DNA of 45,148 nucleotides, taken from a virus. The stretch is from positions 1 to 45,148 of the IMG/VR virus record IMGVR_UViG_3300046512_000220, one strand, 5' to 3'. Positions within the stretch are counted from its first letter, which is position 1, and every line of letters begins with the position of its first letter. This document shows, piece by piece, positions 16,541 to 34,936 of this stretch. A program made the position numbers and the translations under genes. The notes beneath the pieces were generated by a model. It saw only the letters and a program-made list of their open reading frames with translations, was not told the origin of the DNA and ran no database searches.

Positions 16541-16556
16541 ATTACCAAAAAGTAAG
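16541..16556. promoter_or_regulatory. Candidate repressor operator before the dam-like gene
   Basis: ATTACC-AAAA-AGTAAG matches the ATTACC-N4-GGTAAT operator form seen at 32140 and in the cI/cro region, with one half perfect and the other at 4 of 6. It ends 12 bases before the methyltransferase ATG. It suggests that the prophage repressor also acts on this gene. Confidence 0.5.
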
Positions 16557-16568
16557 AAGGCTCACAGA

Positions 16569-17360
16569 ATGGCAAATCCCATCATCCCGTGGATCGGCGG
16601 CAAGCGTCGCCTCGCGGATATCCTCCTGCCGCGGTTCCCTGCGCACAAGTGCTATGTGGAAGTATTCGCGGGCGGAGCGGCTCTCTTCTTCCTGCGGCCG
16701 CCGGCGGACGTGGAAGTCGTCAATGACATCAACGGCGAGCTGGTGAACCTCTACCGCGTGGTGCAGAACCACATGGAAGAGTTTGTGCGGCAGTTCAAAT
16801 GGGCGCTCACCAGTCGAACCGTGTTCCAGTGGCTCAAGGACACGCGGCCGGAGACGCTAACGGATATTCAACGCGCGGCGCGGTTCTACTACCTACAGCA
16901 GAATTGCTTCGGCGGAAAGCTGGAAGGGCAGACCTTCGGGACGGCCACGACGACGCCCCCAGGGCTGAACCTGCTCCGCCTCGAGGAAAATCTGTCTGCC
17001 GCGCACCTGCGGCTGTCGAGCGCATTTGTCGAGAACCTCGATTGGGCGGATTGCATCGGCCGCTACGATCGACCGCACACTCTCTTCTACCTGGACCCGC
17101 CATATTGGGAGACGGAGGGCTATGGCGTTGACTTTCCCTTTGAGCAGTACGAGCGCATGGCCGAGATGATGGCTGGCATTCAGGGTAAGGCGATCATCAG
17201 CCTGAACGATCATCCGGAGATCCGCCGCGTGTTCGGGCGCTTCGAGATGGAAACGCTCGATATCAAATACACGGTCGGCGGCGGCGGAGCTGGGGCCCAG
17301 CGGAAGGAGGTCGTTATCTACAGCTGGGACCGTGGTCAGGAGCCGGCCGGGCTGTTCTGA
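16569..17360 (+). CDS. dam: DNA adenine methyltransferase (Dam/D12 class)
   Basis: This 263-aa protein is a D12-class N6-adenine methyltransferase. Motif X is PWIGGKRRLA (residues 7-16), motif I for SAM binding is EVFAGGAALF (31-40), and the catalytic motif IV DPPY is at 176-179. Length and motif order fit Dam-like phage enzymes, whose usual target is GATC; the target is not visible from sequence. It is the last + strand gene of the late region, after the lysis cassette, and has its own candidate repressor operator. It may protect phage DNA from restriction or mark replicated DNA. Confidence 0.85.
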   Translation: MANPIIPWIGGKRRLADILLPRFPAHKCYVEVFAGGAALFFLRPPADVEVVNDINGELVNLYRVVQNHMEEFVRQFKWALTSRTVFQWLKDTRPETLTDIQRAARFYYLQQNCFGGKLEGQTFGTATTTPPGLNLLRLEENLSAAHLRLSSAFVENLDWADCIGRYDRPHTLFYLDPPYWETEGYGVDFPFEQYERMAEMMAGIQGKAIISLNDHPEIRRVFGRFEMETLDIKYTVGGGGAGAQRKEVVIYSWDRGQEPAGLF

Positions 17361-21315: not shown

Positions 21316-22326
21316 CTAGGCCCAGTCCTTCACGCGCTTTGGTACGCTGGTCAGCGACGGCTCCATGAATAGGCCGGCCGGCTTCGGTGCAGCCTTGGCC
21401 TGTGGGTAGACCGTCAGTACCTTCTTGAGCGCCGGCAGGAAGTTCTCTCGAAACTTCTTCACGGTCTTGTATTCGCTGCCGAATTGCTGATACAGCGCAT
21501 CCCACGGTACCGTGGTCGGCCTGGTCAGGGAAAAGTTGCGATAGGTCATCCAGCAGTAAAGGTCGAGTGCCATTGGCGACGATCGGAGCGCACGCAGCGC
21601 TCGAAGGTCGACCGGCACAGGATTGGCCTTGGTTTCCTCGAAGAACTGCTCGCCCAGGACAATGTTTGACTGCCATAGCCCCGCCTGGCCGGGGTTGCTG
21701 GAGGACCACCAGAGGTTGGCGTTTTTCACCACGTCCAGCTTTTGCACGCGGAGATTCTCATCGACGGAGGCGCCGCCAATCTGCGCCGAGATATCGGCGA
21801 GAAACAATCGCATCATCTGGTCCCTAAGACGAGTTCGAGCGCCGTTTTTCCCGCCGCTGCGATGCTCGCCAATGCCCAGCTCGGCCATGAAGGCGGCAAG
21901 GCTATCGCCGAGGATGATGGTGCGCTCGTTCGTGCGAACGATTTCCGCCCCAATCCATGCGAGCATTAAGCGGGGGTAGGACCCGTAAGGGTAGCCAACG
22001 CGATCCCACTCCCCTGCCCTATTTTTGGCGTGCCCCTGTTTGATGATCAGGCTGGTTTCGCCGACTTTCCGCTCCCAGACCTCAAGGGACCGCAGCGGCT
22101 CCCGATACGGCAAGGTCGCCTGTACCAGGGTGCGGCCCATGTAGCCCGTCATGCCGGCCCGGAAAGCGTCCTCTGCTTCAATGGCGCGGGCTTCTTCCGA
22201 GAGGCGATTGTCGATGACAGGCGATACCGCATTGCGGGGCGTGTAGCTGCGCCTGCGCTTCGGTTTGGCGGGCGCCTCTGCAGGCGTCGGCGTCAACTCA
22301 AATGCGCCGAATTCCTTCTCGTCCAT
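21316..22326 (-). CDS. repA: Plasmid replication initiator RepA
   Basis: This 336-aa protein resembles the plasmid RepA family (PF04796-type). Recognisable parts are GYPYGSYPRLMLAWIGAEIV near residue 110, then TIILGDSLAAFMAELG, and a C-terminal region with PMALDLYCWMTYRNFSL and VPWDALYQQFG. The first 50 residues are basic and unstructured (KPKRRRSYTPRN). Such proteins bind iterons, melt the origin and recruit host helicase. The gene faces away from an array of six iterons 260 bases upstream, with a further inverted iteron 60 bases before the ATG that can serve for autorepression. Confidence 0.85.
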   Translation of the reverse strand: MDEKEFGAFELTPTPAEAPAKPKRRRSYTPRNAVSPVIDNRLSEEARAIEAEDAFRAGMTGYMGRTLVQATLPYREPLRSLEVWERKVGETSLIIKQGHAKNRAGEWDRVGYPYGSYPRLMLAWIGAEIVRTNERTIILGDSLAAFMAELGIGEHRSGGKNGARTRLRDQMMRLFLADISAQIGGASVDENLRVQKLDVVKNANLWWSSSNPGQAGLWQSNIVLGEQFFEETKANPVPVDLRALRALRSSPMALDLYCWMTYRNFSLTRPTTVPWDALYQQFGSEYKTVKKFRENFLPALKKVLTVYPQAKAAPKPAGLFMEPSLTSVPKRVKDWA

Positions 22327-22386
22327 CGCTCGCGCCCTTCCCTTTTGGTATCGAACGGAAACATAGCATGCGTTGTGTACCCCCTT

Positions 22387-22402
22387 CGCATAAGTGGGGG
22401 CG
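22387..22402 (-). promoter_or_regulatory. Inverted iteron upstream of repA (probable autorepression site)
   Basis: CGCATAAGTGGGGGCG is the complement of CGCCCCCACTTATGCG, one base different from the origin iteron CGCCCCCACATATGCG. It lies in opposite orientation to the six iterons and 61 bases upstream of the repA ATG, the usual place for an operator of a Rep gene. Confidence 0.65.
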
Positions 22403-22502
22403 CACTGTTTTGATGTTCAGGTTTGTCATCAGCTCGTCGAGCGCATCGCGAAATGTGGGCAACCGGAGGTTGTCCACTGTAGCGATGTGCCCTACTAGCA
22501 AA

Positions 22503-22556
22503 GCTAAAAGTAAACCTACTGCTAAAAGCAAAAACTAGATGCCGGATTTTTGTGTG
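22503..22556. other. AT-rich segment with GCTAAAAG repeats (candidate unwinding element)
   Basis: GCTAAAAG occurs at 22503 and 22521 in a stretch much richer in A and T than its neighbours, ending near the iteron array at 22584. Plasmid origins have such an easily melted region beside the iterons. It may also contain the repA promoter on the - strand. Confidence 0.5.
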
Positions 22557-22583
22557 TTTCGTCAATGGCTTAGGTGCAATCTC

Positions 22584-22744
22584 CGCCCCCACATATGCGC
22601 GAGCCGCCCCCACGCATGCGAAAAATCGCCCCCACATATGCGGCACTGTCGCCCCCACATATGCGCGGAGCCGCCCCCACATATGCGGGGAAAAGTGACG
22701 CTATCCACAGGCCTTGTCCACAGCCATGCGCCCCCACATATGCG
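22584..22744 (+). other. Plasmid replication origin: six iterons with DnaA-box-like sites
   Basis: Six copies of the 16-mer CGCCCCCACATATGCG start at 22584, 22605, 22627, 22650, 22672 and 22729; only the second differs (CACGCATGCG). Spacings of 21-23 bases place the first five on one DNA face, at about two helical turns. Between copies five and six are CTATCCACA (22701-22709) and TTGTCCACA (22714-22722), each one base from the DnaA box TTATCCACA. The array lies between parB and repA. With the AT-rich segment and RepA gene it makes a typical theta-type oriV. Confidence 0.9.
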
Positions 22745-22747
22745 AAA

Positions 22748-22765
22748 GTGTCCCACTTGGGACAC
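22748..22765. promoter_or_regulatory. 18-bp palindrome, copy 2
   Basis: GTGTCCCACTTGGGACAC is the complement of copies 1 and 3. It lies three bases after the last iteron and four bases before the parB stop codon. The position beside the origin favours a centromere role, or a switch linking partition and replication. Confidence 0.7.
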
Positions 22766-22769
22766 CTCG

Positions 22770-23660
22770 TCAGGCGCCCTCTTCCAGCAGCTCGCGCAGG
22801 AATGTCTGGAGCCTTTCGGCCTTCTCCTGCGGCAGCGCTTTGTGCGAGACCTTGATGATCAGGTCGGTCGGAGTCCGGGCGATTGTGCCGATACGGGCTT
22901 TTCCCTGGGTCAGGATGATCGGCTTGGCTGCTTCGCTCTTGCTAGCCGGTTTCTCGGCCGGTTGCTGGAGGAATGCAACCGCCCTACCCTGCTCTAGCTT
23001 GCCGGCCTCGATCAGATCCAGGGCCTCATTCAGACGATCTGCCGAGGCGGGCGAATCTTTCAGTGCTTGAGCGATGTCGCTGGCCGCCCTTCTTCCGATC
23101 AGGTCTGGCGCCTTGCGCAGACGCTCAATCGCTGCTGGTGGCAGATCCCGGAATGCCAGGTAGCGATACAGCTCGGAGCGTGCGAGATTCAGGGCCTTGG
23201 CTAAGTGGCTGCGCTTGGGAAACTTCTCTTCCAGCTGGAGAATGCCTTCTGCTACCTCGAAGTCCGTCAGACCTTCGCGGTCGATGTTCTCGGACAGCGC
23301 CATGGCAGCGGCTTGGCCGTCGTCCGCATCAACTACGATAGCCTCGATGGTTGGCTTGTTCAGTAGGCGGTGCGCTCGGAGGCGTCGCTCGCCGGCGATC
23401 AGCTCGTAGTCGTCGCCGTGCGCGCGGACGGTGATGGGCTGCGTCAGGCCTATCTGTGCGATGGATTTTGCCAAGGCTTGGATGCCCTCTTCCGCGAACG
23501 TGATCCGGGGCTGGAAGCGATTTGGCATGATCCGGTCGAGGTGGATCTTCGTGTGTTGGCGCCCTACGTCGAACACCTCTTCGTAGTCAGCTTCACGGTG
23601 CTGCTGGATGTTGGCTGCGGCCTGCTGCGCTAGCAGTGCCGCCTTGACGCTCTTGCTCAC
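22770..23660 (-). CDS. parB: Partition protein ParB
   Basis: This 296-aa ParB has the canonical layout. The N-terminal CTPase domain includes NRFQPR (48-52 area) and box II GERRLRAH (90-97). ENIDREGLTDFEVAEG follows at 124-139, then a helix-turn-helix near 148-170 (KRSHLAKALNLARSELYRYL). The C-terminal dimerisation part ends LQTFLRELLEEGA. It starts in ATGA overlap with parA, so the two are one operon. It should bind a centromere, for which the 18-bp palindromes at 21297, 22748 and 24565 are candidates, and is probably the plasmid segregation protein. Confidence 0.9.
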   Translation of the reverse strand: MSKSVKAALLAQQAAANIQQHREADYEEVFDVGRQHTKIHLDRIMPNRFQPRITFAEEGIQALAKSIAQIGLTQPITVRAHGDDYELIAGERRLRAHRLLNKPTIEAIVVDADDGQAAAMALSENIDREGLTDFEVAEGILQLEEKFPKRSHLAKALNLARSELYRYLAFRDLPPAAIERLRKAPDLIGRRAASDIAQALKDSPASADRLNEALDLIEAGKLEQGRAVAFLQQPAEKPASKSEAAKPIILTQGKARIGTIARTPTDLIIKVSHKALPQEKAERLQTFLRELLEEGA

Positions 23661-24487
23661 GCTGCGCCCTCCTCTTCCAGGACATTGTCGGTCAGCTTCA
23701 GCTTGAGCGACTTGGCCAGTGCGGCAGCGAGCTGGCGGAACTGGCGCGCGGGCTTCGAGCTGCGATCGATGCCGTGGGCGCTGGTCTTCATGACCACTGC
23801 CTGGCGCACGGCGGTGCCCTGCGAAATCTTCTCAGGCAGTAGCTTGCCGAAAGTGTTCTCGGCCTGGCCGGCGAGCAGCTTGCAAATGGTCTGACGGTCG
23901 TCGTACTTGATGAGCAGCGCGCCGAGCATTTCCAGATTCGGGTTGATGCGGCGGATCTGCGCTACTTTTTTCAGCAGATCCTCGGCGCCATAGAGGCCAT
24001 ATTGATCGCCTGCTTCCACAGGCACGATGACGTGCGTGGCGGCTGCAAGCGCATTGCTCGCCAGCAGCTTCAGGCTCGGCGGGCAGTCGATCAGGATGAC
24101 GTCGAACACGGAGTCAGCCGGCAGTAGCTTGCTGCGCAGCTCTTCGTTCGGTCGCGGCGAGAGGTCCTTAAGCTCGTCCTCGGCCTTGCCCAAGGCGAGG
24201 CTGCCGGAGATCAGGCAGACGCCCTCGATGGTGGTTTCTTCCTGTACGGCGGCGGCTAGGAGCGAGTGATCGCCGGTCAGCAGCTCGGCGGCCGAGACGT
24301 CGACCTGGGCGGGGTGGATCTTGCCGATGTGAAGGGAAGCGTTGGCTTGAGGGTCGAGATCCACGACCAGGACCCGATTGCCTTGGCGGGCGAACTCGCT
24401 GGCCAAGTTGATGGTGGAGGTCGTTTTGCCGCAGCCGCCTTTGTGATTGACGATGGCGATGACTTTCGCGTGTTTGAACTCGCTCAT
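23657..24487 (-). CDS. parA: Partition ATPase ParA
   Basis: This 276-aa ATPase has deviant Walker A KGGCGKTT (16-23), Walker A' VVDLDPQANAS (41-51) and Walker B VILIDCPPS. It lacks the long N-terminal helix-turn-helix of type Ia plasmid ParA, so it is close to Soj-like or short ParA. It would form DNA-bound gradients that move the ParB-centromere complex. ATG 24487 is preferred because MSEFKHAKVIAIVNHKGG is the usual start; an upstream ATG at 24553 would add 22 non-conserved residues. One 18-bp palindrome lies 78 bases upstream, near its promoter. Confidence 0.9.
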   Translation of the reverse strand: MSEFKHAKVIAIVNHKGGCGKTTSTINLASEFARQGNRVLVVDLDPQANASLHIGKIHPAQVDVSAAELLTGDHSLLAAAVQEETTIEGVCLISGSLALGKAEDELKDLSPRPNEELRSKLLPADSVFDVILIDCPPSLKLLASNALAAATHVIVPVEAGDQYGLYGAEDLLKKVAQIRRINPNLEMLGALLIKYDDRQTICKLLAGQAENTFGKLLPEKISQGTAVRQAVVMKTSAHGIDRSSKPARQFRQLAAALAKSLKLKLTDNVLEEEGAA

Positions 24488-24564
24488 GTGTCCGTGTGCG
24501 TTGTTGTTAATGTTCGTGAACGATATACGGCGTTCGCGAGGATGACAAGGCACAAAACAAAAAA

Positions 24565-27185: not shown

Positions 27186-27935
27186 TTATTCGGTGGTGGT
27201 GGCGTGGCGCGCCTTCGCTTCGGCGTAGTGCTGATCGCTGCAAAAGCCCTGCTTCATCCACAAAATGTGAGACGGGCGACCGCAGAAGCACTGAGGCATG
27301 GGCTCCGACTGATTGGCGTCGAACCAGGCCTGCGCCTCCTTTCCGTAGGGGGCGTTTTCGTCCGGGATGAACCCTGGGCCGCAGAGCGTGTTGTGAATCC
27401 ACGCCATGGCATCCTCGGCGCCTTTGCCGTGCTGCCATTCGATCCAGGCGGCCTGCATGACAACGCAGTGGTCGTGGACGATGTTGGAGAGGGACTTGGC
27501 TAATTCCTCCCAGCGCGCAGCTGCAGCTGCAGCTGCGTCGGAGCTGCCCCGCAGGAAGGAGCGGCTGGCATGCTCGGACACTGTTGTGTTGAGCGCCTTG
27601 CGTGCGTGGAGCATCGCGCAGACGTTGGCCGCCTCTATGTAGTCGCCTTGGCACAAGGCCTCCGCGAGCATCTGTGAGAGGCGCTCGACGGAGAATTTGC
27701 GCACGTCGTCCCATTCGCGGCGTCGCTTCACGCGATCCGTGGCCATGCGCGCCTTCTGTGCGACGGAGAGCGCCTCGATGGCCAAGTCGTCGGCATTCGT
27801 GCGCGGGGGTGCGGTGCGTGGGCCTGGTGATGTGGCGGCCAGCAGCAGGCCGCGCTGGTTGGAGGGCAGGCGGGAGCCGATGCTGTTCATGGAGGCGGCC
27901 GGGGAGTGTTGTTTGGGCAGGCGTGGGCGTGTCAT
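27186..27935 (-). CDS. Conserved phage protein with C-terminal Cys motif, unknown function
   Basis: This 249-aa protein begins with a disordered basic region (MTRPRLPKQHSPAASMNSIG) followed by helices rich in Arg, Ala and Glu. The last 40 residues hold CFCGRPSHILW and a further Cys-His (FCSDQHYAEA), a pattern like a small zinc ribbon. ATG 27935 is 20 bases after the stop of the ParB-like gene; farther upstream starts would overlap that gene by up to 430 bases. I recognise no function; a nucleic-acid-binding role is possible. Confidence 0.55.
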   Translation of the reverse strand: MTRPRLPKQHSPAASMNSIGSRLPSNQRGLLLAATSPGPRTAPPRTNADDLAIEALSVAQKARMATDRVKRRREWDDVRKFSVERLSQMLAEALCQGDYIEAANVCAMLHARKALNTTVSEHASRSFLRGSSDAAAAAAARWEELAKSLSNIVHDHCVVMQAAWIEWQHGKGAEDAMAWIHNTLCGPGFIPDENAPYGKEAQAWFDANQSEPMPQCFCGRPSHILWMKQGFCSDQHYAEAKARHATTTE

Positions 27936-27955: not shown

Positions 27956-30061
27956 TTATTGGGCGAGAAGCGAAGCGAGGCTCTTGCCTTCTGCAATGGC
28001 ATTCGAAACCCAAGCAGGCCGTTTGCCGCGACCCGTCCAAGTGTTGCCCTTGTCGTCGCGATAGCGAACGTGGATCGATGCCGGGCGCTTCGTGGTAGGC
28101 GTGACCTTCTTTGCCTGGATCGCTTTGGGCTTCGGCGCTGCCTTGGTGGCGTGCGTGCGCGCTGCGGTCGGCTTCGTGGTTTTCTTTGGGCTGGTCGGGC
28201 CGCGGAGGATCTTCGGCAGCCAGCCCGTGCCGCCGAGCTTCACGGCGGCCGCTTTCGCGAGCTGGTCCTTCTTCATCGTGGCCAGCGACTCCGCGTCCTT
28301 CTTGCTCGTGGCCTCGACAACCGCCTCGACGGCCAGGGCCTTCGAAACGTGGTTTAGGTAGCTGGCAGGGGTGGCGGTCCACCACTGCGCCATGTCCAGC
28401 TCGACCGCCTCGGCAACAGCATCAGCAGCGTGCGGTAGCGCGGCAGTCTGTACGGCGCTCGTGCCCGTGGCGGTGCAAAGTGCGAGCAGCTGCAGGAGAT
28501 CCTGCTGGGGGAGGGCAATGAGGTGCGGAAGCAGATCCTTCTCGGACTTGGGCAGGCCTGCCAGGATCTCGCCGCGTGCCTTCTGCAGCTTCTTCCACGC
28601 GTCGGTGTCCTTGAGGTCGTCGGCGATCGAGGGCAGGGGCTCCATCTTGTTCTCGACCTGCGCGTGCACAGCACTCCCCGCGCCGGCGTAGTGCTGCCCC
28701 TTGCGGAACAGCCGGCTGACAAGGCTGTGCACCAGCACCGCGAGGGCGATGTGCGGTTGCTCCACCAGGTGCAGCTGCAAGGCGGCCGTCCGGTGTGCCG
28801 TGAGTCGTCGCGCGAGGCTTTCGGACAGCGCCGGCTTCTTGGGCTTCGCTTCCTTGGCGGTGCCCGAGGCCGCCGAGGCGCCGCCAGGCGATGCGGCTTT
28901 TTGCACGAGGCCGCGAAAAATCTGCGGCGTGCCGCTGTCATCGACGGATACGATGGCGCCGGCCTTGGCCTTGTCGGCGTCCGCCCACGTGCGGAAAGAC
29001 GTGTTGAGTGCCGTGATTTTCCCCTGGATGGCATCAAGCTGTTCGTCCTGCTCGGTCCAGGCCTCGCTGTCCTCGAGCCCGTTGCTCTCTAGGGCGTCCA
29101 TGGCTGCGACGCATGCGTCGCGCTCGCGTTGCAGGGCGTCCAGCTCCTTCTTCTGGGCCTTGGTTGGCTGGTCATTGGCCGGCATCACGGAGCCGTATCG
29201 ATACGTGTGATAGCTGCGGAACTCGTGATCCACTTCCACCCAGGACCAGCCTTCGCTGCGCACTTCGGATGCAATCGCCTCGAGCTTGGCGTCCGCGAGC
29301 TGCTGCAGCAGCGTCTGGTCGGAGAGATAGCCATTGCCGGCATCGCTGAAAAGGTCGCGCTCGACGCGGCCGCCGGCGGCCTCATAGGCCTCAATGCCGA
29401 CGAGCTTTGCCAGGGAGCTACCGCGTACCTCTACCTCGCCTTTAGCGAGCAGGCGGCGCAGGCTTTCCGGCTTGCGCTGCCACGGGGTCGGGTTTTCTTT
29501 CCAGACCCGCTCCTGGGCCTTGTGGTCGTCCGTGATGGCCATCGCCATGAGCTGCTCGAGCGAGGCTTCGCCGGCGCGATAGATCTGGATCATCTTCGGC
29601 GATACGTTGGCCAGCTTCAGGCGGCGCAGCACCACGAGTGGGGTTACGCCGAATCGTGCGGCGACGTCCTCCACCTGGACGCCCTGGTCCACCATCTCTT
29701 TGAATGCTTCGAACTCGTCCGCCGGATGCATCGGCTCGCGCATGGTGTTCTCGGCCACGCTGTCTTCGAGTGCCGTGGCGTTGTCGCGTACCAGGCAGGG
29801 GGTGGGGTAGTCCTCGGCAAAGGCGCCGCGTTCCACGTTGATCTTGATAGCGCGCCACCGGCGGCCGCCGGCGTTCACTTCAAAGCGACCGGTTGCGGCG
29901 CCGTCGACCAGCTCCGGCGTCACCACCAAGTTTTGCAGGATGCCGGAGTGGAGAATCGACGCCGCCATCGCTTCGAGATGCGAGGGCTTTGTCTTGCGTG
30001 CGTTTCGCGGGGAGAGAAACAGGCTCGAGAAGGGAATAAGTTGGTGATGGCTAGTGGTCAT
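27956..30061 (-). CDS. ParB-like protein with C-terminal H-NS DNA-binding motif
   Basis: This 701-aa protein has a ParB/Srx-type N-terminal domain: RNARKT at 19-24, GGRRWRA at 65-71 in place of GERRxRA, and AENTMREPMHPADEFEAF at 103-120. A helix-turn-helix follows near 129-150. The middle is helical and unlike classic ParB. A Lys/Pro/Ala linker at about 610-660 leads to a C-terminus that matches the H-NS DNA-binding motif, TWTGRGKRPAWV at 674-685. It is separate from the true ParB at 22770 and belongs to the leftward early operon. A role in early gene control or DNA organisation is inferred. Confidence 0.8.
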   Translation of the reverse strand: MTTSHHQLIPFSSLFLSPRNARKTKPSHLEAMAASILHSGILQNLVVTPELVDGAATGRFEVNAGGRRWRAIKINVERGAFAEDYPTPCLVRDNATALEDSVAENTMREPMHPADEFEAFKEMVDQGVQVEDVAARFGVTPLVVLRRLKLANVSPKMIQIYRAGEASLEQLMAMAITDDHKAQERVWKENPTPWQRKPESLRRLLAKGEVEVRGSSLAKLVGIEAYEAAGGRVERDLFSDAGNGYLSDQTLLQQLADAKLEAIASEVRSEGWSWVEVDHEFRSYHTYRYGSVMPANDQPTKAQKKELDALQRERDACVAAMDALESNGLEDSEAWTEQDEQLDAIQGKITALNTSFRTWADADKAKAGAIVSVDDSGTPQIFRGLVQKAASPGGASAASGTAKEAKPKKPALSESLARRLTAHRTAALQLHLVEQPHIALAVLVHSLVSRLFRKGQHYAGAGSAVHAQVENKMEPLPSIADDLKDTDAWKKLQKARGEILAGLPKSEKDLLPHLIALPQQDLLQLLALCTATGTSAVQTAALPHAADAVAEAVELDMAQWWTATPASYLNHVSKALAVEAVVEATSKKDAESLATMKKDQLAKAAAVKLGGTGWLPKILRGPTSPKKTTKPTAARTHATKAAPKPKAIQAKKVTPTTKRPASIHVRYRDDKGNTWTGRGKRPAWVSNAIAEGKSLASLLAQ

Positions 30062-30087: not shown

Positions 30088-30951
30088 TCAGGCGGTCAGG
30101 CGCGCGCGAATGTCTTGCAGCTCGTGGCGCAGCAAATCGATCTCGGCGTGTAGCGCGCCGATATGCTTCGCGCCCCGGCGAGCCTCGCGGCTGCGCAGAT
30201 TGCGAGGCACTTCGCCTTTTGCTTCGGCGTAGCGCGTCAGCGCGTCGAGTTCGTCCAGGACGTCGGCGATCGTGGATTGGTAGCCGCGGATGGTGTCCTC
30301 GCGGTGCTGGGCGAGGCGGATTTGCTCCTGCACTTCGGTGTCGGTCATTGGTCGGACAAACAGCGCGTGGGGGCCTTCCTCGGTGTCGTAGATCTCCAGC
30401 AGGTTCCACCCATCGCCTTGAGGCGGCGTGGGTTCCCATGCGAGGCAGCTGGTGCCTTCATCGAAGACCTTCTCGACCAGTGCTTGGTCTGCGCAATCGG
30501 TCTCCATGGAAACGAAGGCGGCACGGAATCCGAGGCCTCGCAGAACAAGGTCGAGATCGGTTCCTTCTGGAAAGCTCGGAAGGGCAGGGTGGATGCAAAA
30601 CCCGTCCGCATCGCGCGGGTTGGTCGGGCGCATCAGATCCTTCCGGATGCTGTCGAGGTCCACGGGGACTGGCTCCGATCGCGGAAAGTTCGCCTCCGCG
30701 TCGAGTTCAGTGCGGATGGCTTGGCCGTCAAACGGCAGACCGTTTGCCAGTTTGCTGGCGACGAAGCGCAGTGCGGCCGCGCTCTCGGGATGTGTGGTGC
30801 CGAGTGGCATGGTGCATGCCAGCAGGCGCGCTGCGATGGCTGTCTGGCGATCACGGCACAGGCGGTGTGCCTTGCGGCGGGCGCGCGCAATGGTGGCAAC
30901 CGCGATGGCGGCGAGTGCGATGAAAACAAACAGGGAGGATAGGGAGGACAT
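30088..30951 (-). CDS. Membrane-anchored coiled-coil protein, unknown function
   Basis: This 287-aa protein has one N-terminal membrane helix (SSLFVFIALAAIAVATIARA), then a soluble region with several acidic patches and a C-terminal coiled coil (DALTRYAEAKGEVP to the end, LLRHELQDIRARL). The topology suggests a cytoplasmic domain tied to the inner membrane. It is read after the 141-aa gene in the leftward operon. I do not recognise the family. Confidence 0.6.
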   Translation of the reverse strand: MSSLSSLFVFIALAAIAVATIARARRKAHRLCRDRQTAIAARLLACTMPLGTTHPESAAALRFVASKLANGLPFDGQAIRTELDAEANFPRSEPVPVDLDSIRKDLMRPTNPRDADGFCIHPALPSFPEGTDLDLVLRGLGFRAAFVSMETDCADQALVEKVFDEGTSCLAWEPTPPQGDGWNLLEIYDTEEGPHALFVRPMTDTEVQEQIRLAQHREDTIRGYQSTIADVLDELDALTRYAEAKGEVPRNLRSREARRGAKHIGALHAEIDLLRHELQDIRARLTA

Positions 30952-30966: not shown

Positions 30967-31392
30967 TTACTTGTTGATGACGGAAATGCCCTGGGCGGTG
31001 GCCATTGCATTGGCTCGCTCCTGGGCGATGCGGAATGTGTCCAGCCGCATGAGGAGGATCGCCTCATCGATGGACGGGGCGGCGGAGTGGAGGGCGGCGA
31101 CGTTGTCTGGTGTGACAAGCACGGTCCCGGTCGTCTTCCAGCGCTCGAAGATGTCGTCCAGGGCCTTTCTGAAGACCTCGAGCTGGGGCGCGAAGTCCGG
31201 GATGCGCTGGAGTGCCATTGCCCAGTCCACGACGCGGATCATCTTGGTCAGGTTGATATGCGCTGCGGCGCAGGGCTCGGTGATCAGGCAGTCGAGCGCC
31301 TCGTAGAAGTGCAGCTCGATCAGCCGGCGGCCCGCCGCGGCCATCGGGATGGCGGCGAGGCGGGGGCGATAAGGCTTCGCGCGGCGGCTCAT
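30967..31392 (-). CDS. Conserved early phage protein, unknown function
   Basis: This 141-aa protein begins with a basic stretch (MSRRAKPYRPRLAAIPMAAA), then helices such as ALDCLITEPCAAAHINLTKM and DDIFERWKTTGTVLVTPDN. It starts in ATGA overlap with the P-loop-like gene upstream. Similar small helical proteins are frequent in early operons of Burkholderia and Pseudomonas phages, without known function. Confidence 0.6.
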   Translation of the reverse strand: MSRRAKPYRPRLAAIPMAAAGRRLIELHFYEALDCLITEPCAAAHINLTKMIRVVDWAMALQRIPDFAPQLEVFRKALDDIFERWKTTGTVLVTPDNVAALHSAAPSIDEAILLMRLDTFRIAQERANAMATAQGISVINK

Positions 31393-31742
31393 GGCGCCAC
31401 CACCGTCATGAGCGTGTCGAGTTCGTCGTACAGCGAGAACACCTTGGGCCCGACCACAAGCTCGCGGTCCACGTCCTGAAGAGGAACCAGTGGGTCCGGG
31501 CCGAGGTCAGGGGCATGGGCGTTGATCAGGTGTACGAGAAAACCTCCGCTGTCATGCACCAGGCCGGCGGCCTCGGGCGTTTCGACATCAGGGATCACGA
31601 CGAGCGGCATTTGCCCGGCCGCAGCGTCGGGTTGCGAGAGCGCAGCATCTGCTCGAACGACGGCAAAGCCGTGGGTGTTGGCCAGGTAGTCGGCGGCCGC
31701 CGACTGGCCGGCGCCGGGGCGCCCGGTGAAACCGATCAGCAT
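31389..31742 (-). CDS. Degenerate P-loop protein (dNMP kinase-like)
   Basis: This 117-aa protein starts MLIGFTGRPGAGQSAAADYL, the beginning of a P-loop kinase of the deoxynucleoside monophosphate or dephospho-CoA kinase type. However, the Walker A lysine is replaced by Gln13 (GRPGAGQS). It is also shorter than active members, which are about 180-240 aa. It may bind a nucleotide without catalysis or be a decayed enzyme. ATGA overlap with the next gene shows operon coupling. Confidence 0.6.
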   Translation of the reverse strand: MLIGFTGRPGAGQSAAADYLANTHGFAVVRADAALSQPDAAAGQMPLVVIPDVETPEAAGLVHDSGGFLVHLINAHAPDLGPDPLVPLQDVDRELVVGPKVFSLYDELDTLMTVVAP

Positions 31743-31748
31743 GGGATA

Positions 31749-31964
31749 TCAGTCGATGTCGTTGGCTTGCCGGCGCTTGTAGTCGTCGGCAGGGCGGCGG
31801 GGGGTGGGGGTCTTGCGCTCGGCCTGCCGCTGCGACTTGATCGACGCAACGAGGGCAAGGCGCGTCCGCTTGTCACGGATGGCGTCTTCAGGCCGGCCGC
31901 TGCCCTTGATGCGCTTGAATTCAGCGATCAGAGCGGCATTGGAGAAGGGCCGCGGCCGGGCCAT
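31749..31964 (-). CDS. Small basic protein
   Basis: This 71-aa protein is rich in Arg and Lys (MARPRPFSNAALIAEFKRIK, later PTPRRPADDYKRRQ) and could bind nucleic acid. Its ATG overlaps the stop of the 43-aa gene upstream (TGATG), so the two are probably coupled. A longer in-frame start at 32198 would cross the leftward promoter and is unlikely. Confidence 0.6.
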   Translation of the reverse strand: MARPRPFSNAALIAEFKRIKGSGRPEDAIRDKRTRLALVASIKSQRQAERKTPTPRRPADDYKRRQANDID

Positions 31965-32137: not shown

Positions 32138-32167
32138 AAATTACCAGAAGGTAATATTTCAGGTCAA
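32138..32167 (-). promoter_or_regulatory. Leftward early promoter (PL-like)
   Basis: On the - strand TTGACC (32162-32167) and TAATTT (32138-32143) are 18 bases apart and point to the 43-aa gene. Repressor operators overlap both elements (32140-32155 and 32166-32181), so this promoter should be silent in the lysogen. Confidence 0.65.
32140..32155. promoter_or_regulatory. Repressor operator OL1
   Basis: ATTACC-AGAA-GGTAAT has perfect six-base arms and is the best copy of the operator. It overlaps the -10 box of the leftward promoter. Confidence 0.75.
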
Positions 32168-32181
32168 TACCATTTGGTGAT
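32166..32181. promoter_or_regulatory. Repressor operator OL2
   Basis: AATACC-ATTT-GGTGAT keeps ten of twelve arm positions. Its centre is 26 bases from OL1 and it touches the -35 box of the leftward promoter. The rest of the gap up to the cI stop (32182-32342) has a short hairpin near 32239 (CGGTCGCTCCCCGACCG) and nothing else I can identify. Confidence 0.65.
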
Positions 32182-32342
32182 ATTTGCGCGCGCGCCACGT
32201 CCTGGAGGGCTGCGCTCCATGATCAGACGGTAATCGGTCGCTCCCCGACCGAGGCCGAATTAGTGGTGTGAGGTGCCCCGCGGCCGCTCTCCGGCGGTCA
32301 GGTGCGAGGCGAAAATGGAGGGGCGCCAGCCCCGGTGCGTGC

Positions 32343-33062
32343 TTACAGTTCCAGCGTGGCTGTCACGATGATGCCGCAGATGCGGTCGTCTTTGTGCACG
32401 CGCAAGAATCGGTTCGGCCACTCAGGATTGAGCGCTTCCAGGAAGGGCTCGCCGTCGACCAAAACCAGCTTTTTGAACGTTGCCTCGTTGCCGTTGCGGC
32501 GAACGATGACGAACTTTCCAGGCTGTGCCTCGAGGTCCGGATTAACGAACAGCAGCATGCCTTCTGGGAACGACGGCGAGATCCCTGCGGGCGCCGTCAT
32601 GGAATAGCCTTTGACCCTTAAAACGAAGCCACGAGGTCCCAGTTCCTTGTGGCAGTAGTGATACGCCTGCGCTGTTGCAGGTTCGAAGTTATCTGCGATT
32701 TCTGTCCACATCCCCGCTTGTACCCATGAAATCTCGGGGTAAGACCGCGGCCTCATGTCAGGCCCGGCTTCGAAGTTGTCCCCGGATGTCGGGAAATTGT
32801 AAGGGTCGGACTCGATGTGTGCCGCCCCCTGCGAAAGAGGGGCATCGTCCGCATCATGGGCACGATCGAGCCATCCCGCCGGTGTCTGGGTCAGCTCTTC
32901 TATTCGGCGGGCCTTCTTCTCACCAAAGCTTTTGCTGCCTCTGGTGAGGCCTGAGATCTCGCCCTGGTTCATGCCCGTCTGGCGCACGAACTCAGCCTGC
33001 GTGCCGTACTTCTGGGTGATCAGGAGTTGGAGGCGCTTGCGCCGGTTTTCAGCGATGGTCAT
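32343..33062 (-). CDS. LexA/CI-type prophage repressor
   Basis: This 239-aa repressor has an N-terminal helix-turn-helix (TQAEFVRQTGMNQGEISGL, 21-39) and a C-terminal S24 peptidase domain. The self-cleavage site is Ala116-Gly117 (WVQAGMW), the nucleophile Ser154 in VKGYSM, and the general base Lys197 in ATFKKL. RecA filaments should therefore trigger its cleavage, making the prophage inducible by DNA damage. It is divergent from the cro/ydaS gene with three operators between. It likely controls the leftward and rightward early promoters and perhaps dam. Confidence 0.9.
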   Translation of the reverse strand: MTIAENRRKRLQLLITQKYGTQAEFVRQTGMNQGEISGLTRGSKSFGEKKARRIEELTQTPAGWLDRAHDADDAPLSQGAAHIESDPYNFPTSGDNFEAGPDMRPRSYPEISWVQAGMWTEIADNFEPATAQAYHYCHKELGPRGFVLRVKGYSMTAPAGISPSFPEGMLLFVNPDLEAQPGKFVIVRRNGNEATFKKLVLVDGEPFLEALNPEWPNRFLRVHKDDRICGIIVTATLEL

Positions 33063-33070
33063 AGCCTCGG

Positions 33071-33099
33071 ATTATCCCAATCAATTACTTTTAGGTAAA
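33071..33099 (-). promoter_or_regulatory. Candidate repressor maintenance promoter (PRM-like)
   Basis: On the - strand TTTACC (33094-33099), a 17-base spacer and GATAAT (33071-33076) lead to the repressor ATG only eight bases later. The -35 box is one half of operator O1, so bound repressor could modulate its own synthesis. Confidence 0.5.
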
Positions 33100-33138
33100 A
33101 CACCAAAGGGTATTGAGGAGGGATTACTTTATGGTAAT
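33084..33138. promoter_or_regulatory. Three repressor operators between cI and cro/ydaS
   Basis: Copies are ATTACT-TTTA-GGTAAA (33084-33099), AACACC-AAAG-GGTATT (33099-33114) and ATTACT-TTAT-GGTAAT (33123-33138). They cover both divergent promoters, as in the lambda OR region. Differences between the arms could give graded affinity. Confidence 0.75.
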
Positions 33139-34559: not shown

Positions 34560-34936
34560 TTGCCGAGATCTCCTTCCAGCGCAACATGACCTGCTGCAAG
34601 GCGGGGCGTGTGTCGGTGGGACTCGATTGCAAGCCGGCGTATCAATGGTGTTGCGCCTGGCACCACATCGGCCTTCATGTGAAGCCCAAGGGCATGAAAG
34701 CGCTGCAAGCCTTCGCCGAGCATCTCCTCGGCTTTTGGCCGTTGCATGCTGTGCATTGGGTGTTCAACGCCGCCGGCGAAACCTCGGCGCTCGCCCTTGT
34801 ATGCGTGCGCCATTTCATGGCGTTGTCGACTCAGGATGAGCGCAATGCGTACCAGGCTGAAGTGAGCACGTCGACGTCGCCTGAATTCCTTTCCTGTTTC
34901 CACGTTCTCTGTGAGGCCGCCTCGAGGCGGCCGTAA
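34556..34936 (+). CDS. Cys-rich early protein, unknown function
   Basis: This 126-aa protein starts at GTG 34556 in GTGA overlap with the previous stop. It has many Cys and aromatic residues (NMTCCKAGRVSVGLDCKP, YQWCCAWHHIGLHV), possibly a metal site, and a short hydrophobic segment near residues 66-76. It lies between two other unassigned early genes. I do not recognise the family. Confidence 0.5.
   Translation: MIAEISFQRNMTCCKAGRVSVGLDCKPAYQWCCAWHHIGLHVKPKGMKALQAFAEHLLGFWPLHAVHWVFNAAGETSALALVCVRHFMALSTQDERNAYQAEVSTSTSPEFLSCFHVLCEAASRRP

Follow-up and report, generated by a model that had tools for sequence, protein, structure and literature searches.

ParB-HNS, a 701-residue protein of what appears to be a temperate phage lineage, brings together the ParB clamp and the minor-groove domain of H-NS, both well-studied DNA-binding modules, in one conserved early phage protein. 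Its gene lies in a 45,148-nucleotide stretch of viral DNA (the whole of IMG/VR record IMGVR_UViG_3300046512_000220), hereafter called the window.

ParB-HNS is a ParB body ending in an H-NS DNA-binding domain

The gene is encoded on the minus strand; on the plus strand, the interval 27956-30061 is interrupted by stops. The protein divides as follows.

27956..30061, minus strand: ParB-HNS fusion gene, 701 aa (ORF list, Pfam, PHROG, homologues, model)
29738..30061, minus strand: residues 1-108, ParB CTPase fold with SPRNARK, GGRRWRA and ENTMRE boxes (structure match to 7bm8)
29441..29737, minus strand: residues 109-207, HTH domain of ParB/KorB type, more strongly conserved than the rest of the body (Pfam, structure)
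28991..29170, minus strand: residues 298-357, weakly conserved helical hairpin (model, identity comparison)
28202..28840, minus strand: residues 408-620, helical domain common to the whole family (model)
28070..28201, minus strand: residues 621-664, disordered Lys/Pro/Ala-rich linker, varying in length and charge among homologues
27959..28069, minus strand: residues 665-701, H-NS C-terminal DNA-binding domain with TWTGRGKRPAWV (Pfam, structure)

Pfam identifies ParB_N at residues 21-73 (E 3.7e-6, above the cut-off) and Histone_HNS at residues 666-699 (E 4.3e-13, 49 bits against a cut-off of 25.6), while HTH_ParB at residues 111-188 falls under its cut-off (E 0.0077). The N-terminal oligomerisation domain of H-NS is absent among the four Pfam families that match the protein up to E 1. 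The model, built from 72 aligned homologues, has a mean pLDDT of 88, and the Lys/Pro linker is disordered in it (pLDDT < 50 at residues 627-664). In structure comparisons, residues 1-207 of the model match KorB (Z 14.5, 200 residues, rmsd 5.6) and Noc (Z 14.3, 196 residues, rmsd 5.1), and the CTP domain of Caulobacter crescentus ParB (7bm8) is matched over 95 residues with an rmsd of 1.7 (Z 13.5). Sulfiredoxin and SbnI appear further down the list. An earlier sequence-only reading had noticed a ParB box-like motif, GGRRWRA, and an H-NS minor-groove motif at the C-terminus behind a Lys/Pro linker. Both are found, at residues 65-71 and 674-685 respectively, and domain searches and structure prediction of the two ends agree with that reading: a ParB fold with its HTH is present at the N-terminus and an H-NS-type domain at the C-terminus.

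For the helical domain at residues 408-620, Foldseek and VIA-align searches with a model of residues 408-701 list no PDB match, which is no evidence of a new fold. With the same model, only the C-terminal domains of Ler, Salmonella H-NS and Bv3F reach Z >= 2. Given their low scores (Z 2.2-3.9) and 35-46 aligned residues, these matches are weak alone, and it is the sequence match that bears the claim. PHROG 7783 (function unknown) matches residues 9-643 over nearly its whole profile (E 4e-83), but stops short of the H-NS domain.

In the window protein, the mapped nucleotide-contact residues are kept and the hydrolysis residues are replaced

The pocket was mapped from sequence onto C. crescentus ParB, via an alignment with Thermus Spo0J and motif spacing. 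All seven mapped CTP-contact residues are present in the window protein (S74 as S35, G79 as G40, R60 as R22, R103 as R67, R104 as R68, N136 as N105 and R139 as R108), as one would expect if the protein were the CTP switch first suggested. According to the mutant descriptions in PMC8367383, loss of any of these residues (class I mutants) abolishes or weakens CTP binding by C. crescentus ParB. In contrast, Q58 and E102, which are linked to hydrolysis, are replaced by N20 and G66. Among the 72 aligned homologues, glutamine occupies the Q58 position in 9 and glutamate the E102 position in 15, where glycine is the commonest letter (42/72). The E102A variant of C. crescentus ParB is described as binding CTP and closing its clamp, with DNA exit about 15-fold slower (PMC8367383). 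These features suggest that ParB-HNS may bind an NTP and act as a clamp. The survey PMC12704722 states that nucleotide specificity in the ParB-CTPase fold is not reliably predicted by sequence or AlphaFold3, some relatives possibly binding ATP or GTP. Moreover, three of the nine H-NS-tailed copies described below have another residue at the R67 position (G in L111, T in L085 and L143), so NTP binding may differ in these copies.

The H-NS tail is under purifying selection

The H-NS tail is conserved better than most of the body. Among H-NS-tailed homologues, its identity to the window copy is 59-73%, to be compared with 26-52% for the CTPase part (26-36% in the six distant copies) and 22-53% for the linker; the HTH part reaches 59-64% in the six distant copies. 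Residues Y17, R18, D19, G22, W25, G27, R28, G29, K30, P32, W34, A38, G42 and L49 (numbering of the 51-residue query) are invariant in all nine tails. The tail dN/dS is about 0.16-0.38 among the unsaturated pairs listed; one pair was saturated, and L086 was excluded for an insertion. Such ratios indicate purifying selection. In both L085 and L086 the region beyond residue 621 carries a net negative charge as a whole and the H-NS domain is still present, which shows that plain positive charge is not the conserved feature.

The fusion is conserved in a mostly viral clade

Nine H-NS-tailed copies were found (the window, L001, L084, L085, L086, L088, L111, L143 and L012). L012 lies in the Cupriavidus numazuensis genome, and the other eight copies are in virus records. 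The fusion is kept down to about 40% identity. The sequence-only reading had asked whether the fusion is conserved or the tail arose by a chance frameshift; retention in nine diverged loci, together with the dN/dS values above, settles this in favour of conservation.

Within a set of 122 homologous ORFs with a length of 500 aa or more from viral contigs and species genomes (ORFs below 500 aa and near-duplicates above 88% identity set aside; one scan contributing its best 80 of 167), 8 carry the H-NS tail, window included. Likewise, Pfam finds Histone_HNS in 8 of the 72 aligned homologues. A DNA scan of viral contigs for the tail motif, independent of the body, gave 25 stretches, 11 of which were judged plausible H-NS tails: six ParB fusions, L143 being new, and five short proteins of 89-141 aa. 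A body match at E <= 1e-20 is present in 24 of 399 sampled Burkholderiales genomes; of these, the Cupriavidus genome alone carries the tail, and its gene is also the only open frame of more than 400 codons with an H-NS domain among the matches listed for these genomes. On plasmids, the tail query matches 55 records, none annotated as ParB (some records carry no annotation), and the best 60 of 941 records matching the body all end by residue 621. The annotated phage records include 10 with a body match, which never extends past residue 504, and 6 with a tail match, none annotated as ParB.

In a tree of the body, which left out L120 and L122, both highly divergent, and proteins below 560 aa, the nine copies form two groups (three and six) within a clade of 28 mostly viral rows (SH-aLRT 89). 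Two separate origins of the tail, indicated by a quick tree, were discarded, since a tree holding all nine together fits better (p-AU 0.873). A single origin is therefore not rejected, and as the operon is shared as well, one domain gain in one phage lineage is the simplest reading.

Further homologues carry other tails. In the sister phage homologues L106, L116, L103, L104, L117, L092, L115, L099, L107, L101 and L109, Lys/Ala/Pro-rich histone-H1-like tails replace the H-NS domain. Another group (L087, L089, L090, L091, L094 and L019) has a conserved AWPFP motif at its end, preceded by a basic linker. Of 33 non-redundant viral rows, 24 have an H-NS or basic tail, versus 3 of 60 genome rows (Fisher p 7e-12). 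The idea that a basic tail marks phages was nevertheless rejected: with relatedness taken into account, only six independent pairs are left and a sign test is not significant.

ParB-HNS belongs to a conserved and probably lytic-early operon

The surroundings of the gene are listed below.

27186..27935, minus strand: 249-aa protein downstream of ParB-HNS, homologue of the L001 195-aa protein
30088..30951, minus strand: 287-aa protein with N-terminal hydrophobic stretch, directly upstream of ParB-HNS
30967..31392, minus strand: 141-aa protein of the conserved early operon
31389..31742, minus strand: 117-aa relative of deoxynucleoside monophosphate kinase-like protein
31749..31964, minus strand: 71-aa product of the conserved early operon, 74 aa long in L001
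32140..32167, minus strand: promoter-like TTGACC-N17-GGTAAT heading the early leftward operon (0 expected by chance)
32140..32234, no strand: three operator-like ATTACC-N4-GGTAAT sites (32140-32155 exact; 32166-32181 and 32219-32234 with 2 mismatches)
32343..33062, minus strand: phage repressor (PHROG 4, transcriptional repressor)
33084..33138, no strand: two more operator-like sites before the repressor gene (33084-33099 and 33123-33138)

In all nine H-NS-tailed loci, a 74-aa gene, a dNMP-kinase-like gene and a gene of about 140 aa precede ParB-HNS, in this order. These three genes occur in none of the 24 basic-tailed and none of the 92 other loci, some of which have short flanks. The same gene follows ParB-HNS in 8 of the 9 loci. 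Pfam finds DNMK in the L143 copy of the kinase-like protein and not in the shorter window copy.

The promoter and operator patterns were chosen after reading the sequence and then scanned, giving six operator-like sites in the window against 0.34 expected; the stricter promoter scan does not list the site at 32140..32167. As repressor-type operators overlap its promoter, the ParB-HNS operon is probably lytic-early, in a placement that resembles the leftward early operon of lambda. This agrees with the early lytic position, apart from parAB, that had been proposed from the sequence: ParB-HNS is not beside parA, which lies about 3.4 kb downstream and adjoins another parB (22770-24553). A lone operator-like site with 2 mismatches (16541-16556) stands just before a putative DNA adenine methylase-like gene at 16569.

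In the window, the two lowest-GC 60-bp stretches in the 4.5 kb before ParB-HNS are about 3.1 and 2.1 kb upstream of it, where the control regions of the repressor and the early operon are found, and a low-GC stretch is found at a similar distance in 7 of the other 8 H-NS-tailed loci.

The window is probably a phage-plasmid with mosaic modules

The window carries replication and partition genes of its own.

21316..22326, minus strand: RepA-type replication initiator
22770..24553, minus strand: separate parA-parB genes of the element, with a canonical GERR box in parB

A plasmid replication origin probably lies upstream of repA, at 22584-22752, where five iteron-like direct repeats with the core CGCCCCCACATATGCG occur. 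RepA shares 85.7% identity with its counterpart on a 38-kb Cupriavidus oxalaticus phage-plasmid (NZ_CP038638), and the repA-parB-parA block (21316-24553) resembles the same element (3.6 kb, 79% DNA identity). On this basis, the host is probably a Cupriavidus. NZ_CP038638 has a sheath-bearing tail module and no annotated ParB-HNS. Since the repA-parAB block thus matches a phage-plasmid with another tail module, the window is probably a phage-plasmid with mosaic modules. A phage integrase is found in four of the nine H-NS-tailed loci, and parA and repA are nearby in the window only. The GC content of the phage is 64%, with few AT-rich islands.

The body resembles orphan ParB proteins of plasmid leading regions

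Outside phages, the body matches at least 5000 plasmid records (tblastn). These include the leading-region ParB of conjugative plasmids (parB2, in the order ssb-parB-psiB-psiA), which aligns with residues 9-372 at about 32% identity (E 2e-30, tblastn). This relative is on plasmids, not phages, and the match has no H-NS domain. In the one plasmid record examined, the order is ssb-DUF905-parB-psiB-psiA, among antirestriction genes; the leading-region ParB is an entry gene of a mobile element. By sequence similarity, the ParB-HNS body belongs to this orphan ParB family, here in a temperate phage lineage. The ParA-binding motif [LFI]G[KR]G[LFI] occurs in none of 93 family proteins, which is weak evidence because the window's own parB lacks it too.

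Possible functions of ParB-HNS

We tentatively favour the view that ParB-HNS is an early-expressed DNA-binding protein, an NTP-gated clamp whose H-NS domain targets AT-rich early DNA and counters host silencing. The HTH would load a dimer of the ParB fold onto phage DNA, and NTP binding would shut the clamp, which may reopen slowly because the hydrolysis residues are replaced. The H-NS domain, on its flexible linker, would grip the minor groove of AT-rich early control DNA and so anchor the clamp, which could displace or exclude host H-NS-type silencers at this place, as does the ParB-like VirB in Shigella; an incoming or induced phage could then express its early genes. The proposal draws on the domains present, the early timing and the example of VirB. 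A narrower version, in which the clamp competes for the exact AT-rich sites of H-NS and, through slow NTP hydrolysis, stays locked during the first minutes of infection, is doubtful. Several observations count against an anti-silencing role: H-NS-type sites should be few in a phage of 64% GC; an H-NS-type domain is found, at E <= 1e-5, in only 165 of the 399 sampled Burkholderiales genomes; and deletion of pED208 ParB2, which occupies the same place between ssb and psiB, is described in PMC8406263 as having no effect on mating-induced SOS response or transfer.

Alternatively, the protein could be an architectural or protective coat that spreads on or bridges DNA early, as a nuclease shield or replication organiser, the tail raising non-specific affinity. 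The Lys/Ala-rich tails of the sister phage homologues, the antirestriction genes around the plasmid relative and the nucleotide-metabolism gene adjoining the early position of ParB-HNS are consistent with such a coat. However, the association of tails with viruses comes mostly from one clade, and the H-NS domain is retained where the whole tail is acidic, which makes this explanation rather unlikely. The packing of AT-rich phage DNA, also raised by the sequence-only reading, fits poorly with the GC content and the few AT-rich islands.

It is more distinctly unlikely that ParB-HNS is a transcription regulator or silencer of AT-rich control regions of the phage or of host genes, like a phage xenogeneic silencer and not an opponent of one. 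The coexistence of a ParB-type HTH and an H-NS domain, the low-GC stretches at early control regions and the presence of KorB, a ParB-fold repressor, among the top structural matches point in this direction. On the other hand, Pfam finds no H-NS N-terminal oligomerisation domain, and a gene under a repressor-type promoter is probably not made in lysogeny.

A second partition protein of the phage-plasmid would fit the ParB fold and the presence of repA and parA in the window, but is highly improbable given that the element has its own repA-parAB, with its own parB adjoining parA, that parA and repA were found nearby in none of the other eight H-NS-tailed loci (phage integrase in four of the nine), and that NZ_CP038638 has the same block and no annotated ParB-HNS. 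It is just as hard to credit an enzyme, nuclease or sulfiredoxin-like, that the tail merely brings to DNA: sulfiredoxin and SbnI share the fold, but ParB, Noc and KorB, HTH included, are the nearest structural matches, and no nuclease family was found by Pfam, PHROG or structure matches.

Relation to known systems

Ler, H-NS and Bv3F have C-terminal domains with the same fold and motif as the last 37 residues of ParB-HNS, and each has an N-terminal oligomerisation part of its own. In ParB-HNS, unlike these proteins, the ParB body replaces the N-terminal part. To our knowledge, VirB has no H-NS domain; ParB-HNS differs from it in that the silencer's own DNA-binding domain is fused on. Both nevertheless share, on the description of VirB given in PMC10770331, a ParB fold, the loss of a hydrolysis residue (one of two in VirB of Shigella, which counters H-NS) and possibly H-NS antagonism. 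ParB-HNS may counter host H-NS, with this ParB relative as a functional analogue.

Phage use of H-NS parts is not new, as EPV1 is described as encoding a full-length H-NS (PMC7074111). The ParB-CTPase fold fusions described in PMC12704722 likewise join an orphan ParB of a mobile element to a further domain; the main text of this survey, as far as consulted, names no H-NS or PF00816 fusion. Nor is a ParB-HNS fusion named in the titles or abstract openings found by literature search. As far as these searches reach, the joining of an H-NS domain to a ParB body is new.

Orphan ParB proteins of mobile elements are many, mostly without known function. As the tail names a probable DNA target, the function of the leading-region ParB group can be tested directly. 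The fusion, in a family found in phages of soil bacteria, suggests a route by which a phage may reach DNA kept silent by the host; if true, CTP-type switches would be linked to the contest between phages and host silencing.

Further sequence features of the H-NS-tailed loci

No binding site of the ParB-HNS HTH was found. The sole palindrome of interest, TGATGGC-N4-GCCATCA within the gene, was rejected since amino acids and codon use explain it (6.38 of 7 pairs versus 5.94 expected, scored in eight H-NS-tailed copies after one without a pattern match was dropped). Downstream of ParB-HNS, a Dam-like methylase gene adjoins a putative ParB-like gene of about 500 aa in L001 (11061-13505) and L143. 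Finally, a GC-rich dyad, GGCCGC-N6-GCGGCC, is located near the 3' end of an early gene in the window (34915-34932) and in five related loci (6/9 versus 0/9 comparison loci).
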